Assembly: GCF_030064125.1 (NCBI RefSeq)
Contig: NZ_CP125957.1
Location: 5,140,501 to 5,204,500 of the forward strand
Reading direction: 5' to 3'
DNA: 64,000 bases
Origin: Pseudomonas sp. G2-4
GTDB lineage: Bacteria; Pseudomonadota; Gammaproteobacteria; Pseudomonadales; Pseudomonadaceae
How positions within the stretch are numbered: the first letter of the stretch is position 1; each line of letters opens with the position of its first letter. Below, piece by piece: positions 2,743-50,055 of this stretch. Under the pieces are notes generated by a model. That model saw nothing but the letters and a program-made list of their open reading frames with translations, was not told where the DNA came from and searched no databases. A program made the position numbers and the translations under genes.

Positions 2743-3435
2743 TCAAAAATAAAGGGTTGGATCGCTCACGCCCGCGGTTGCGAAGCCTTCTGCACGCAAG
2801 CGGCAGCTGTCGCATTTGCCGCAGGCACGGCCCTGATCATCGGCCTGGTAGCAGGAAACGGTCAGCCCATAGTTCACGCCAAGCTTCACACCCGCCCTGA
2901 CGATGTCGGCCTTGCTGAGATTCTGCAGCGGCGCCTGGATGCGGAAACCCTGCCCTTCTACACCGGCCTTGGTCGCCAGATTGGCCATGCGCTCAAAGGC
3001 TTCGACAAACTCCGGACGGCAATCCGGATAGCCGGAGTAATCCACGGCGTTGACGCCAATGAAAATGTCACGAGCACCCAGCACTTCGGCCCAACCCAGC
3101 GCCAGGGACAGGAACACGGTGTTACGTGCCGGCACATACGTCACCGGAATGCCTTCACTCGGCGCCTCGGGTACGTCGATGGAGCTATCGGTCAAAGCCG
3201 AACCGCCAATGCCGTTGAGGTTAAGGCCGATCACCTTGTGTTCTACCACGCCCAAATCCCGGGCAACCCGTTCAGCGGCGTGCAGTTCGACGCGATGGCG
3301 CTGGCCGTAGTCGAAACTCATGGTGTAGCAACGGTAGCCTTCGGCGCGGGCCATGGCCACGACCGTCGCCGAGTCCAGCCCCCCGGACAACAGGATGACC
3401 GCACGTTTTTCAGCAATGTTCGAGTGTTCCGTCAT
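2743..3435 (-). CDS. queC: 7-cyano-7-deazaguanine synthase QueC
   Basis: A 230-residue enzyme converting 7-carboxy-7-deazaguanine to preQ0 with ATP and ammonia, in the queuosine tRNA modification pathway in the cytoplasm. The PP-loop SGGLDS is at residues ~17-22, and the C-terminal zinc site is seen as Cys then CGKCDSC near residues 197-214. Length is normal for the family. It lies one base after queE, so the two form a short operon, and both feed modification of the queuosine tRNAs. Confidence 0.96.
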
Positions 3436-3436
3436 A

Positions 3437-4084
3437 TCAGCGCCCCGGCTCGTCGTTCCAAAGATATTTATGCAGCTGCAATTGCAGGCGCACCGGCAGA
3501 TTATCCGCCACCACCCAGTCCGCCAGATCCCGAGCGTTCAGGTCGTGATGGCTCGGCGACAACAATACCTCGCCGGCCCGTTGGTCGAGCCCGTATTGAA
3601 TCAGCTTGGACACGGCCCAGTCGTAGTCTTCCCGCGAACAGATCACGAACTTGACCTGGTCGTTGGGCGTCAGCAGCTCAATATTCTCATAACGGTTGCG
3701 GTGCGCTTCCTTGGAACCTGGGGTTTTCAGGTCCACTACACGACTGACGCGCGGGTCGACGGCCGAGATGTCCAAGGCGCCGCTGGTTTCCAGGGAAACC
3801 TCATAGCCGGCATCGCACAACTGCTTGAGCAAAGGAATGGCGTTGGGTTGCGCCAGTGGCTCGCCGCCCGTGACGCAGACGTAGCGCGGGCGATAGCCGG
3901 CCACTTGCTCAAGGATATCGTCGAGGGTTCGCAAGGTGCCGCCGCTGAACGCGTAGGCACTGTCGCAGTATTGGCAACGCAACGGGCAACCGGTGAGGCG
4001 CACAAAAACCGTGGGCAGCCCAGCCGTTCGCGTTTCACCCTGCAACGAGTAAAAAACTTCGGTGATTCTCAATGTGTCTTGCAT
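3437..4084 (-). CDS. queE: 7-carboxy-7-deazaguanine synthase QueE (radical SAM)
   Basis: A 215-residue radical SAM enzyme that contracts 6-carboxytetrahydropterin to 7-carboxy-7-deazaguanine in queuosine synthesis. The cluster motif CPLRCQYC (CxxxCxxC) is near residue 33, and the VCVTGGEPL motif near 70 binds S-adenosylmethionine. I start at the ATG at 4084 ([11 protein letters not shown]), which matches the usual N-terminus; an in-frame GTG lies three codons upstream. It immediately precedes queC. Confidence 0.95.
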
Positions 4085-4200
4085 AGTCGCCACGGGCGTA
4101 ACAGCTAAACAGGCTGTCCGCCTCCGTCAGGCACTTCAAGGAACCCCGCCAACGCGCAGATCCCAAAAAGCGTGTTTCATAAAAAGGGCGTGAATTCTAA

Positions 4201-4228
4201 CGAAAAAACCCGCGACAAGCGCGGGTTT
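4201..4228 (-). terminator. Rho-independent terminator of the tol-pal operon
   Basis: A 9-bp GC-rich stem (AAACCCGCG / CGCGGGTTT) with a 5-base loop. On the minus strand it is followed by a run of Ts. It lies 23 bases past the cpoB stop and separates the tol-pal genes from queE-queC. Confidence 0.85.
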
Positions 4229-42480: not shown

Positions 42481-44011
42481 CGCCACCGTAGTCATCCGCC
42501 CGCGAACCGCCTGGGAAGCCATGGACCTGGGTGTGCTGATGAGCCAGCGGCATCGACGGTTGCTGATGACCAGTTGGGCCATCGTCACACTGCCGGTGTA
42601 TGTGCTGCTGACCCTGTTGCTGTGGGATTCGCCGTCCCTGGTCGTGCTGGTGTTCTGGTGGTTGAAACCGGCCTTTGACCGACTGCCGCTGTTCATTCTT
42701 TCCAAGGCGCTGTTTGGCGAAACGCCCACGTTGAAACAGGCCTTGCGCGCGTGGCCCGCGCTGCTCAAGCCCCAGTTGTTGGCGAGCCTGAGCTGGCGAC
42801 GGTTGAGCCTGAGCCGCAGCTTCCTGATGCCCGTGGTGCAACTTGAGGGGCTTGCCGGCGATGCGCGCGAGCAGCGCTTGCGGGTCCTGCTGCAACGCAA
42901 TGGCGGCGCGGCGCAATGGCTGACCCTTATCGGCGTGCACCTGGAAACCGCCTTGTGGTTCGGCCTGATGGCCCTGTTCTATCTATTCGTGCCGCAACAA
43001 GTCGAATTGGAATGGGACTGGCAGATGCTGGTGGCAGCGGCCGAACACGACTGGTTGTGGTTCGAACACCTGGTCAACTTCCTGTATCCCCTGCTGCTGA
43101 TCGTCTGGGAGCCGATCTATGTCGCCTGCGGCTTCAGCCTCTACTTGAACCGGCGCACGATTCTCGAGGGCTGGGACATCGAACTGGCCTTCCGCCGCCT
43201 GCGCCAACGCCAACGCCTGAGCAGTACAGTTCCCGTGCTGATGCTGCTGGCACTGTTGCTGCTACCCCCGGCCCCCCCGGCCTGGGCCGCCGAAGACAGC
43301 AGCGCACCCGACAGCCCCCGCCTGCTCCATCAACCCCTCACCAGCGAAGGGGCCCGGGACAGCATCAAGGCGATCCTCGAAGCCCCACCGTTCAAGACCC
43401 CGGAAACGGTCACCCGTTATCGTTTCGGCGAAGAAGCCACCGAGGCTCCCGAGAAGGGCGAAACCCCGGGTTGGCTCAAGGCATTGTTCAAATGGATGGG
43501 CAGCCAACGCTTCGACATCATCGCCACGTTGATCCAGATCGCCCTGTGGGCCTGCCTGGTGGGCGCGATTGTCTGGCTGGCCTGGCACTACCGGGAAAGA
43601 CTCAAGGCCTTGGTGAATCTCCGGCCGACGCAACGGGTAACCCTTGAACGACCGGCACCGACCCAAATGTTCGGCCTGGATATCCGCCAAGAGAGCCTGC
43701 CAGTCGACGTGGCCACCAGCGTCGAGCAGTTATGGTCCGCCAATCCCCGCGAGGCGCTGGGCCTGCTTTACCGCGCCCTGCTCAGTCGGCTGCATCATGA
43801 CTTCCAGGTCCCATTGACGCCGGCCGACACCGAAGGCCAAGTGCTGCAACGCATCGAACAGCTTCAACAGGCCAACCTGCTGGGCTTCAGCGAAAGCCTG
43901 ACCCGGCACTGGCAGAACATCGCCTATGGGCACCGTACACCGCCGCCCCACCTTCAACAGGAACTGTGTGACGGCTGGCGCGGGCTGTTCGGTCCGGGAG
44001 CGTCTCGATGA
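42467..44011 (+). CDS. DUF4129-containing membrane protein
   Basis: A 514-residue protein. The N-terminal half has several membrane helices (near 34-56, 160-180 and 255-275) and an AWAAED processing-like site near 275. A further helix lies near 368-388, and the C-terminal DUF4129 domain is at ~420-510 (NPREALGLLYRALLSRLHHD). DUF4129 occurs beside transglutaminase-like and MoxR/DUF58 genes. Coupled to both neighbours by overlaps. Confidence 0.85.
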   Translation: MRLSDATVVIRPRTAWEAMDLGVLMSQRHRRLLMTSWAIVTLPVYVLLTLLLWDSPSLVVLVFWWLKPAFDRLPLFILSKALFGETPTLKQALRAWPALLKPQLLASLSWRRLSLSRSFLMPVVQLEGLAGDAREQRLRVLLQRNGGAAQWLTLIGVHLETALWFGLMALFYLFVPQQVELEWDWQMLVAAAEHDWLWFEHLVNFLYPLLLIVWEPIYVACGFSLYLNRRTILEGWDIELAFRRLRQRQRLSSTVPVLMLLALLLLPPAPPAWAAEDSSAPDSPRLLHQPLTSEGARDSIKAILEAPPFKTPETVTRYRFGEEATEAPEKGETPGWLKALFKWMGSQRFDIIATLIQIALWACLVGAIVWLAWHYRERLKALVNLRPTQRVTLERPAPTQMFGLDIRQESLPVDVATSVEQLWSANPREALGLLYRALLSRLHHDFQVPLTPADTEGQVLQRIEQLQQANLLGFSESLTRHWQNIAYGHRTPPPHLQQELCDGWRGLFGPGASR

Positions 44012-45171
44012 GCCGGCGTACAGGGTTGCTGACCGGCGCACTGGTGGTCGCGCTGGTGGGTGCGTTGGGCGTCTATCTCTACGTGAAGGCCGTGCCCTAT
44101 CAGGAAACCCTCGATCACGGCCCCTCCCCCGAAGCCCGGGCCAACCCGTACCTGGCCGCCGAACATTTCCTGCGCCAGCAGGGCATCAATGTCGAACATG
44201 CCAATGACCTGAGCGTGCTTCCCAGCCTGGAGCCTCGCCAGCACAGCCTGCTGTTGCTGGGTGAGCGCACCCACATGACGCCACGGGAAGTCGACCAATT
44301 GATGAACTGGACCCGCGCCGGCGGGCGCTTGCTGTTTGTCGCCGAGGCCTTGTGGGATGACAACACCAAGAGCAGCGGCGACTTGCTGCTGGACCGCGTG
44401 CACCTGCGCCAACTCCTGAGCGAAGACCTCAAGGAGCCGGCCCCCGAGCTCATCAAGGATCGCTACCCGGAGCTGACCAAGCTGTACCTGGAAGACGAAG
44501 AGGCGCCTGCGTATATCGGCTTCGACACCGACTTCCACCTCGAAGACCCGCAGAACCTCGCCCAGGCCTGGGCCAACAGCGCCCTGGCGACCCACATGAT
44601 GCAACTGACCCTCGGCCTGGGCTCGATCACGGTGATCACCGACGCCGAGCTGTGGAAGAACGAGCACATCGACCAGTACGACAACGCCTGGCTGCTCTGG
44701 TATTTGGGCGCCGATACCGACGTCACGCTGCTGTTCAACACCGATCACGACGACCTGCTGACCCTGCTGCTGCGCTATTTCCCCCAGGCATTGGTGGCGC
44801 TGCTGGCCTTGGTGGCCCTGTGGCTCTGGCGCTCGGCGGTACGCCATGGCCCGCTGCAGCAACCGGCACCCAAGGCACGGCGCCAACTGGAGGAACACTT
44901 GCAGGCCAGCGCCGGTTTCCACCTGCGCCACAACGGCCAACAGCAGTTGTTGCAGACCTTGCAGCAGGACATCCTGCGCCGCGCCCGCCATCTTCATCCC
45001 GGTTTCGAACAACTGGCCGTCGCCGAACAATGGCAAGTACTCGCCCGCCTGACCCGCCAACCCACGCGAGCCATCAGCCAAGCCTTGAGCCCACGGCCGA
45101 AACAGCGGATGTCCAGCGCAGAGTTCTGCCGCCAGGTCGCCCATTTGCAAACCCTTAGGAATGCCTTATGA
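44008..45171 (+). CDS. DUF4350-domain protein
   Basis: A 387-residue protein with one N-terminal helix (~8-26), a periplasmic DUF4350 domain (~35-260, SLLLLGERTHMTPREVDQL, GGRLLFVAEA) resembling a GATase1-like fold, a second helix near 255-275, and a cytoplasmic tail. Its start overlaps the DUF4129 stop (ATGA). In most related clusters MoxR would follow directly; here the Fic gene intervenes. Confidence 0.85.
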   Translation: MSRRTGLLTGALVVALVGALGVYLYVKAVPYQETLDHGPSPEARANPYLAAEHFLRQQGINVEHANDLSVLPSLEPRQHSLLLLGERTHMTPREVDQLMNWTRAGGRLLFVAEALWDDNTKSSGDLLLDRVHLRQLLSEDLKEPAPELIKDRYPELTKLYLEDEEAPAYIGFDTDFHLEDPQNLAQAWANSALATHMMQLTLGLGSITVITDAELWKNEHIDQYDNAWLLWYLGADTDVTLLFNTDHDDLLTLLLRYFPQALVALLALVALWLWRSAVRHGPLQQPAPKARRQLEEHLQASAGFHLRHNGQQQLLQTLQQDILRRARHLHPGFEQLAVAEQWQVLARLTRQPTRAISQALSPRPKQRMSSAEFCRQVAHLQTLRNAL

Positions 45172-45172
45172 G

Positions 45173-45199
45173 TTTTCCGCAGATAAATCCGCAAGAATG
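45173..45199 (+). promoter_or_regulatory. Upstream direct repeat A of Fic gene
   Basis: TTTTCCGCAGATAAATCCGC followed by AAGAAT, almost the same as a second copy at 45264. Each contains two CCGCA half-sites about one helical turn apart. It begins two bases after the DUF4350 stop. Probably an operator or the edge of the inserted unit. Confidence 0.55.
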
Positions 45200-45238
45200 C
45201 TCGAAATCATCTATCGTACGGCGTTACCAAACCTAGTA

Positions 45239-45252
45239 ATAACGGGCGTTAT
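45239..45252. promoter_or_regulatory. Palindrome ATAACG-GG-CGTTAT
   Basis: A perfect 6-bp inverted repeat between the two direct repeats upstream of the Fic gene; a candidate protein-binding site. Confidence 0.4.
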
Positions 45253-45263
45253 AGCCGATTTTG

Positions 45264-45290
45264 TTTTCCGCATAAATTTCCGCAGGAATC
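45264..45290 (+). promoter_or_regulatory. Upstream direct repeat B of Fic gene
   Basis: TTTTCCGCATAAATTTCCGC followed by AGGAAT, 91 bases (nine helical turns) after copy A and 40 bases before the Fic start. Confidence 0.55.
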
Positions 45291-45329
45291 ACCGAGTAAG
45301 TAGCCGTTTAAGGGCGCCGGAATCAAACG

Positions 45330-46517
45330 ATGATCACCTCGAAAACGTACCTTGACCCAGTACTGCCAGAAAGTCTGCCCGACTCGATCATTCAGGCTGC
45401 GGATCAGTTGCCCCGCAAGGCAGAATTTCTTGCCGGAAGGCTTGCCGATGAGACCTCGAAGCAGCTGGCGGGCCTGCTGCGCATCACCAATACCTACTAC
45501 TCGAACCTGATCGAAGGGCATCGAACCGAGATCGCTGACCTCCAGACTGCTCGCACGACACCGAAACGGGAAAGAAAGGCGCTCAAAGAGCTCGCAGTGC
45601 AACACATGACCCAGCAGGAGGTGATGGAGCGGCTGCTGCGCATGCGGCCAGCGGACAGCTTCTCTGCCATGTTCGATCCCAAGTTGATCGCGACGATCCA
45701 TCGTCGACTTTTCAAGGACGCGTCTACGCAGGAACTGACCCTGGGCGATGGTCGCATGATGGAACCGGGCAGACTGCGGGCCGAACAGAATGAACAGGTC
45801 CAGGTTGGCGCACATGTCGCTCCAGCGGCTGCAGCGGTATTGCCCATGCTTGAGCATTTGCAGTTGCACTACGGACGAATAAAAGACCCGCGGCGCCAAT
45901 TGATCGCCGCCCTGGCAGGCCATCACCGAGTGGCGCTTGTTCACCCCTTCCTGGATGGCAATGGTCGAGTGATTCGGATGCTCACCCACCTGCAACTTGT
46001 TCACCTCGGGCTAAAACCTTTCCTATGGTCACTGTCCCGTGGCCTGGCTCGCAGGCAAGATGAGTACTATCGCTTCCTGGCGTTGGCTGATCGTCCTCGT
46101 GAAGGTGACTATGACGGGCGCGGCCAACTCTCACAGCGTCACTACTTCAACTTCATCGAGTTCATGCTCGATGTTTGCCACGACCAGATTGATTACATGA
46201 CCACCGCGCTAGACCCAGCCAAGCTGCGCGAGCAGGTTGTTCATGTGTTCTCAACGGATCCTGACCTTCGCCGTGCCGGCATCAGGCCCACCAGTGCAGC
46301 GGCTGTGTTAGCGCTGCTCACCCAAGGTGCGATGCCGCGTGCGGAGTTCAAGGTGTTCACAGGCTTGAAGGATCGGCTTGCAACGGAAGAACTGAGTCGC
46401 TTGATCGAAGCGGGGATAGTGGTCAGCAGTACCCCCAGGTCCCGAACGGTGGAAGCGGGTTTGCCCGCCCGCTTCGCCGGATCGATCTTTGCGAACCTGC
46501 ATTTTCAAATGGGCTAA
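45330..46517 (+). CDS. Fic-domain protein (AMPylator type) with inhibitory motif and wHTH
   Basis: A 395-residue Fic protein. The active site HPFLDGNGR is complete (His205-Arg213), so AMP or another nucleotide monophosphate transfer is expected. The N-terminal inhibitory motif SNLIEG (Ser58-Gly63, matching (S/T)xxxE(G/N)) marks a class II self-inhibited enzyme. The C-terminal ~100 residues look like a winged helix-turn-helix (TSAAAVLALLTQ to EAGIVVSS). It lies between DUF4350 and MoxR genes that are usually adjacent, with its own 158-base upstream region carrying repeated sites; its codon use is slightly less GC-rich than the flanking operon. The target is unknown; self-regulation or phage defence are possibilities only. 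Confidence 0.93.
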   Translation: MITSKTYLDPVLPESLPDSIIQAADQLPRKAEFLAGRLADETSKQLAGLLRITNTYYSNLIEGHRTEIADLQTARTTPKRERKALKELAVQHMTQQEVMERLLRMRPADSFSAMFDPKLIATIHRRLFKDASTQELTLGDGRMMEPGRLRAEQNEQVQVGAHVAPAAAAVLPMLEHLQLHYGRIKDPRRQLIAALAGHHRVALVHPFLDGNGRVIRMLTHLQLVHLGLKPFLWSLSRGLARRQDEYYRFLALADRPREGDYDGRGQLSQRHYFNFIEFMLDVCHDQIDYMTTALDPAKLREQVVHVFSTDPDLRRAGIRPTSAAAVLALLTQGAMPRAEFKVFTGLKDRLATEELSRLIEAGIVVSSTPRSRTVEAGLPARFAGSIFANLHFQMG

Positions 46518-46598
46518 TTGTGCCGGTGACTCGGGCCTCAGCTGCTTGAAGTGAGCGCACCATCATAGGATTTAACCGTTAGGAGAACGCCAGAACCC

Positions 46599-47603
<1,005 letters not shown>

Positions 47604-47667
47604 ATACAAACTTCATGATGGAGAAACTCATTGTGGCAAGAGCACTCTCTGTGGCCAGAGTGCTTTT

Positions 47668-47778
47668 TGTGGCGAAGGAGCTTGCTCCCGCTGGGCTGCG
47701 AAGCAGACCCCGGGGTTTGCCTGACACACCGCAAGGGGACGCTGCGCGTCCAGCGGGAGCAAGCTCCCTCGCCACGGG
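47668..47778. repeat. REP family B, inverted pair inside the moxR-DUF58 cluster
   Basis: GTGGCGAAGGAGCTTGCTCC and its complement ~70 bases apart, between two genes expected to be co-transcribed. The pair could fold in the mRNA and set unequal expression of MoxR and DUF58. Confidence 0.88.
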
Positions 47779-49875: not shown

Positions 49876-49903
49876 CGGTCAAACGAACTGTTGCAGCGAA
49901 ACC

Positions 49904-49993
49904 TGTGGGAGCGAGCTTGCTCGCGATGACGGTGGGTCAGCTGACATCAATACTGAATGTGCCGACGCCTTCGCGAGCAAGCTCGCTCCCACA
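49904..49993. repeat. REP family A, inverted pair (forward...reverse)
   Basis: Pair in the gap between the DUF6124 gene and the PilZ gene (convergent), the usual position after gene 3' ends. Confidence 0.9.
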
Positions 49994-50055
49994 GTTGATT
50001 GAAGTACACCCGCAAGAGCCAGGCGTTACGCCCTGGCTCCCTCAGAGAGATAGCC

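Follow-up and report, generated by a model that had tools for sequence, protein, structure and literature searches.

We identified a Fic gene that, with a probability of roughly 0.7, is the core of a portable, self-regulating module, in which the winged helix of the Fic protein would read two repeat pairs upstream of its own gene and thereby autoregulate it. The gene lies in the window (a stretch of 64,000 nucleotides, analysed as a whole) of the 6.65-Mb genome of Pseudomonas sp. G2-4, where genes of the RDD, SpoIIM, DUF4129, DUF4350, MoxR-type AAA and DUF58 families (Pfam) follow one another in series on the + strand. The inserted Fic unit (45172-46598, +) extends from the stop of the DUF4350 gene (44008-45171, +; ORF, Pfam) to the start of the moxR-type AAA+ gene (46599-47603, +; ORF, Pfam; ATG at 46599). 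Within it, fic (45330-46517, +; ATG at 45330, stop at 46517) encodes 395 residues comprising a class II Fic domain and a C-terminal winged helix, and is preceded by 158 bp of DNA after the DUF4350 stop (45172-45329). An earlier note on this DNA had described at this place a complete Fic gene with an inhibitory motif, a winged helix-turn-helix (HTH) and an upstream region of its own of 158 bases; both the coordinates and the description proved correct. Farther along the window, intergenic sequences at 47667-47777 and 49900-49994 recur, partly inverted, elsewhere in the window and in relatives (blastn), and are probably REP-like.

The encoded protein has the hallmarks of the family. Its Fic domain (PF02661) scores 49.9 bits against a Pfam cut-off of 24, and the catalytic motif HPFLDGNGRVIR at residues 205-216 is intact, with HPFLDGNGR (residues 205-213) fitting the catalytic pattern HPFx[D/E]GN[G/K]R. 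Class II enzymes carry an inhibitory motif of the pattern [S/T]xxxE[G/N], represented at the N-terminal side of the window Fic by S58-xxx-E62-G63 (S58NLIE62G63), and S58, E62, H205, G210, N211 and R213 are invariant in 18 homologues. On these motifs the window Fic is a class II Fic/Doc enzyme, for which AMP transfer would be the expected activity. The AlphaFold2 model (mean pLDDT 86.7) shows the winged helix at the C-terminus, and in Foldseek searches it matched Fic proteins with a winged-helix domain and, weakly (E about 0.2-0.3), MarR-type proteins; by model and Foldseek, a C-terminal HTH is therefore carried in the same chain as the Fic domain, as in CccR (see below). A second Fic gene of another subfamily is present in the same genome (G000:C1:5766542-5766886; L001), and was placed in the control set used below.

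The element upstream of fic consists of two direct-repeat pairs, TCCGCA-N6-TCCGCA, 91 bp apart. Putative operator 1 (TTTCCGCAGATAAATCCGCA; 45174-45193, +; column identity 0.92 over 10 orthologues) has its TCCGCA cores at 45176-45181 and 45188-45193 (+), a period of 12, and putative operator 2 (TTTCCGCATAAATTTCCGCA; 45265-45284, +; column identity 0.96 over 10 orthologues) at 45267-45272 and 45279-45284 (+), while the 71-bp spacer between the pairs (45194-45264, +), the supposed promoter site, has an identity of 0.69 in the 10 orthologues. Across these orthologues the mean pairwise column identity of the repeat cores was 0.976, compared to 0.717 for the rest of the upstream region. The exact TCCGCA-N6-TCCGCA pattern occurs twice in the 6.65-Mb genome, both times upstream of fic. 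A dispersed regulon was considered and rejected: beyond the two exact sites, sites with one mismatch were not in excess (43 versus 128 for a reversed control pattern).

Repeats with the same period recur throughout the family. We scanned 220-260 bp upstream of fic genes for repeated exact 5-mers containing two or more G or C, taking each repeat distance in turn, and excluded two partial loci (L113 and L207) from the counts. A repeat at distance 12 was found in 17 of 23 cluster representatives (the set in which the pattern had been noticed), in 25 of 28 loci of an independent set obtained by searching 369 genomes of the class, and in 8 of 10 plasmid loci chosen for diversity out of 188 records. 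Upstream of Fic genes of other subfamilies, with start codons set mechanically and one of 24 loci too short, it was present in 4/23, within the range for other distances (1 to 10), so that some of the distance-12 repeats counted will be due to chance. Distance 24, a double period, came second (9/23 and 12/28). Two pairs could be called (score of at least 23) in 31 of 54 loci, and were not called in the other 23; in 16 of the 31 they are 87-91 bp apart, the distances seen being 68-69, 77-78, 82, 87-91, 101-102, 109-110, 123-124 and 147 bp. Triple repeats that add 12 bp account for part of this spread, and we do not argue for helical phasing. On one Agrobacterium plasmid (L216), two Fic genes lie in tandem (1532-2713 and 2986-4224), and distance-12 repeats precede the second gene but were not found before the first. 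Promoter scans recognised no sigma-70 promoter in the unit, and the spacers between pairs were no more promoter-like than shuffled sequences (mean 9.52 versus 9.36, with 2 of 23 loci below 0.1), leaving a sigma-70 promoter between the pairs without support in these scans.

Additional support for a reading of the repeats by Fic came from covariation between the two. Codons 343-355 (FTGLKDRLATEEL; 46356-46394, +) encode, according to alignment and model, the turn and the start of the recognition helix, including T352 and R349, the latter invariant in 18 proteins. The half-site letters vary among family members (TCCGCA, TGTGAA, TCTGCA, CCGGCA, GCGGAC and others), the G at the fourth place being part of our site definition, as suggested by the examples seen. 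Because looser half-site calls include false sites, we relied on a strict rule, under which 35 of 53 representatives had sites and 18 had none; partial or broken members (L076, L112, L200 and L205) were excluded from the tables. Residue 352 ranked first of 373 alignment columns in covariation with half-site base 3 (0.62; next best 0.50), with Arg accompanying G in 19 of 20 cases, Thr accompanying C in 6 of 7 (one a tie) and Ile accompanying T in 6 of 8 (the other two being C/T ties). The other columns serve as a control here because they share a common ancestry with column 352. Under the looser rule residue 352 again came first, of 366 columns (R-G 20/25, T-C 5/6, I-T 6/7). Tree reconstruction placed six changes each at residue 352 and at the base, three of the six on the same branches and the others with ambiguous ancestors. 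For half-site base 5, no column stood out clearly across the whole set of representatives (best 0.13, looser rule). Thirteen close proteins (87-100% identity to two reference members) form a cluster in which the ten with TPRP at residues 347-350 carry A as base 5 of their operator sites, while in the three with SSRL both pairs read TGTGAA then TGTGCA, the second half-site being TGTGCA in place of TGTGAA. Nine residues differ throughout between these groups, three of them being 347, 348 and 350, and the switch was probably one event. R349 probably contacts the conserved half-site G, and residue 352 the base before it.

These observations can be assembled into a scheme. The module would comprise the 5' control region and one class II Fic gene; the Fic winged helix would bind the TCCGCA half-sites, arranged as two tandem pairs (12-bp period) ∼90 bp apart, and bound Fic would, most likely, limit its own transcription, such that a potentially growth-stopping enzyme stays scarce through autoregulation. 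Conservation and covariation are what point to Fic repressing its own promoter; direct binding by Fic, repression rather than activation, the placing of a promoter between or near the pairs, AMP transfer and toxicity are likewise presumed in this scheme. Should the DNA switching described for CbFic2 hold here as well, the operator would control the activity of Fic in addition to its amount.

The place at which the unit resides bears on its nature. In 26 of the 29 relatives in which DUF4350 and the right flank could be read, the DUF4350 stop overlaps the moxR start (25 ATGA, 1 GTGA), as expected from the earlier proposal that the two host families are normally adjacent and that Fic is an insertion between them. 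Unrelated DNA parts the two genes in the other three, which are more distant Pseudomonas: ∼2.7 kb with a globin-flavoprotein (flavohaemoglobin) and a nitronate monooxygenase (G018, L232), ∼10 kb with a Na+/H+ antiporter, a BCCT transporter, a mechanosensitive channel, a DUF294 protein and others (G026, L231), and ∼2.4 kb with short frames only (G032, L230). As 3 of 29 relatives hold unrelated genes there, the junction takes up DNA repeatedly. A 701-bp empty-junction query matched 397 of 398 Pseudomonas genomes, and among the best 150 of the 397 matches by score 143 were unbroken across the junction and 7 were cut, a proportion that overstates the empty share because ranking by score sinks cut junctions (e.g. 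those of G293, G018, G026 and G032).

The unit might be inserted cargo for single-gene anti-phage defence of the SoFic kind, a possible if doubtful role that would be compatible with autoregulation. The PADLOC SoFic model (PDLC03963, from a library without a cut-off) matched residues 20-371 with 105.7 bits (E 8.3e-31), the patchy presence at a fixed site together with a second locus in Pseudomonas sp. Q11 resembles accessory cargo, and 3 of 10 plasmid neighbourhoods contain toxin-antitoxin, TIR or caspase genes. As opposed to this, the protein scored 31.3 bits against a cut-off of 550 for the NCBI equivalog model (NF046030), a search of 50,697 phage records, at the limits used, gave no match, and the other junction cargo (an FMN dehydrogenase, the flavohaemoglobin with nitronate monooxygenase, and transporters) is metabolic or transport-related. 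The suggestion that the unit is cargo thus fits, whereas the neighbouring cases, being ordinary genes rather than defence genes, point to a site that tolerates inserts, not to a defence island. On a Bradyrhizobium BTAi1 plasmid (L210), the annotation places Fic between TIR-domain, caspase family and ImmA/IrrE genes.

Regulation of the host operon by the unit, with bound Fic or the fic promoter setting moxR-DUF58 expression, seems rather unlikely to us. The insert did end the DUF4350-moxR overlap (both host genes are open in the window) and put fic control DNA upstream of moxR, and a terminator-like site was not found after fic. However, the 3' segment (46518-46598, +), the last part of which (ATAGGATTTAACCGTTAGGAGAACGCCAGAA) is largely conserved in occupied species, probably gives moxR a ribosome-binding site of its own in place of the overlap: TTAGGAGAACGCCAGAA or close variants precede moxR in the occupied species, most of them with TTG as the likely start, and it is from this shared segment that we infer the site. 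Moreover, 40 of the 51 family loci checked have no host gene of this operon beside fic, so that any such influence would be a local side effect only.

A more far-reaching version of the autoregulatory scheme can be formulated, and we consider it unlikely as a whole: the operator would act as a molecular antitoxin across a widespread family of stand-alone AMPylators, the two iteron-like pairs holding Fic DNA-bound and inactive (deAMPylating) and silencing fic, possibly by looping ∼90 bp, while loss or titration of the DNA would free active enzyme; recognition would follow a simple residue-352 code, and the module would also govern downstream host genes where it had landed in an operon (e.g. before moxR-DUF58). 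It is quite unlikely that the repeats are instead bound by some other regulator of these hosts. Many regulators do bind direct tandem repeats, yet the half-site varies between paralogues in one genus, with one Fic residue tracking that variation, and 12-bp repeats recur in Alphaproteobacterial plasmid members. Autoregulation through the winged helix is the preferred reading.

The residence of Fic at the DUF4350-moxR junction is about as old as the separation of the species in this Pseudomonas subgroup, and the presence of Fic there has kept changing. The close set comprised 21 genomes, that of the window (G000) included, with DUF4350 at least 84% identical: 7 have Fic at the junction, 13 lack any insert and show the exact ATGA overlap, and in one (G318) an FMN-dependent dehydrogenase gene (L133:1504-2703, minus) stands in place of fic. 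After the dehydrogenase, G318 retains the last 26 fic codons (88% identical) and the 3' segment, a scar of former occupancy. Eight other species-level genomes, including those of P. citri and P. zanjanensis, have a Fic orthologue (93-96%) at this junction, and hence the position of Fic there is not due to chance; the named orthologue sources are P. kilonensis, P. citri, P. zanjanensis, P. agronomica, P. fluorescens ISL-33 and Pseudomonas sp. Q11. Fourfold-site distances over 21 pairs were 0.17-0.37 for fic and 0.11-0.36 for DUF4350, with 0.11-0.27 for MoxR and 0.11-0.25 for gyrB, and these fic distances, together with the same-junction orthologues, give the age stated above. Individual pairs were discordant, fic being more diverged than DUF4350 between G287 and G409 (0.20 versus 0.11) and less diverged between G000 and G060 (0.19 versus 0.26), which suggests some exchange of fic alleles between genomes.

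The gyrB-region tree places occupied beside empty genomes three times: G000-G288 (support 1.0), G060-G301 (0.89) and G293-G174 (1.0). The gyrB loci of G230, G236 and G035 matched only ∼3.9 of 5.4 kb, making those branches unreliable. In left-flank trees all three sisterhoods hold to within 400 bp, whereas in the first 400 bp of the right flank two of the three hold and the position of the window is unresolved. Because the left flanks follow the gyrB tree this closely, we rejected transfer with long homologous flanks. Deletion does not easily produce a precise empty site, given that the one clear loss left a scar, and switching between occupied and empty states is therefore likely to proceed by short-tract recombination between alleles. 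A recent insertion by a single transfer into this strain, as the earlier note had proposed, is by comparison very unlikely. The nearest relative found (G288, DUF4350 96%) does have an exact empty site, and the first 400 bp on the right miss the window-G288 sisterhood (support 0.45-0.56), so that a short recombined tract is possible there; on the other hand, orthologues lie at the same junction in the eight other species, fic is on the whole as diverged as DUF4350, and on the left, as well as on the right from 400 bp onwards, the window and its empty sister group together (support 0.94-1.0). Nor is Fic an old operon member common to all relatives, the outcome that the same note had named as its refutation, as it is absent from 14 of the 21 close genomes, one of which has the remnant.

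The module also occurs away from this operon. Pseudomonas sp. Q11 carries, at another locus (L091, 2600-4310), a fic that is 95% identical and preceded by the same element, behind a DUF6124 gene of which ∼52 bp of the 3' end are repeated after fic, and has an unbroken DUF4350-moxR junction, although this arrangement rests on one short assembly piece (a contig of 4.5 kb). The unit is self-contained, as had been supposed, in that repeats, leader and fic also stand together at the Q11 locus. Its open reading frames include no integrase or transposase, and besides fic they are only mechanical antisense frames; its score with mobile mystery protein B (TIGR02613) was 38.6 bits against a cut-off of 124.4. 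A target-site duplication was rejected: in the window ATGA stands at either end of the unit, but most of the other occupied species have TAG or TAA at the left end and TTGACG at the right. In Pseudomonas indica (L112, 4001-5163) a Fic homologue matches in two pieces with a frame that stops early (157 aa), and is either a broken copy or a sequencing error. That the repeats are an integration or replication feature for module movement (att-like or iteron-like) instead of an operator is very unlikely. In its favour, the left edge of the module falls at the first repeat pair in Q11 as well as at the junction, and 188 of 72,556 plasmid records contain relatives. Against it, the sequences read showed no repeats of this kind on their 3' side, the unit lacks an integrase, and the repeat letters stay with fic in unrelated surroundings and vary with a recognition-helix residue.

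Taken together, our data describe a recurring direct-repeat operator of class II Fic enzymes, apparently read by the enzymes themselves through a residue-base code, a variant of the autoregulated Fic-HTH arrangement, within a family of at least 1632 protein clusters at E 1e-40 or better. A direct-repeat operator combined with a residue-to-base code would define the exact DNA ligands of dozens of these enzymes, and such defined ligands make control of Fic amount and activity by DNA directly testable; the junction, in turn, offers a natural series (occupied, empty, replaced) for the effect of one accessory Fic gene on a conserved operon. Searches by title or abstract, with most subscription papers outside their coverage, found no paper on direct-repeat operators of Fic proteins. 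In the accessible parts of the sources, the DNA associated so far with class II Fic winged helices is the inverted-repeat operator of CccR and the random DNA used with CbFic2.

Among the known systems, Fic-1-AntF of Pseudomonas 2P24 is akin to the window Fic in being a Fic enzyme of a related Pseudomonas, said in the part of the source accessible to us to AMPylate GyrB, and differs in that Fic-1 works with a separate antitoxin, AntF. We take Fic-1-AntF to be a class I system. SoFic (3EQX) shares the domain order and class II type of the window Fic, and its PADLOC model covers most of the protein, whereas the window protein falls below the NCBI SoFic cut-off; DNA binding by SoFic had not been shown, as far as the accessible text states (PMC10628234), and EcSofic is described, in the available portion of its report, with a 47-residue antitoxin gene downstream (PMC12249575). 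CbFic2 of Coxiella burnetii (8CIL) is likewise a class II Fic protein with a winged helix, in which, according to the sections available, DNA binding switches AMPylation to deAMPylation via dimerisation; those sections report tests with random DNA, name no specific site, and give a host histone as the target (PMC10628234). A further counterpart is CccR of Yersinia pseudotuberculosis (7XUX), the first-ranked PDB match of the window model in Foldseek, which has a Fic domain, class II-type inhibition and a C-terminal HTH and, in the accessible part of its description, is a T6SS effector that represses its own promoter through two inverted 10-bp AGATAATCAT boxes 26 bp apart (PMC9755527). The two proteins are 17-19% identical in the Foldseek alignment, CccR has Ala where the family of the window Fic has R349, and the inverted AGATAATCAT boxes of CccR, as given there, contrast with the direct TCCGCA pairs that precede fic in the window.
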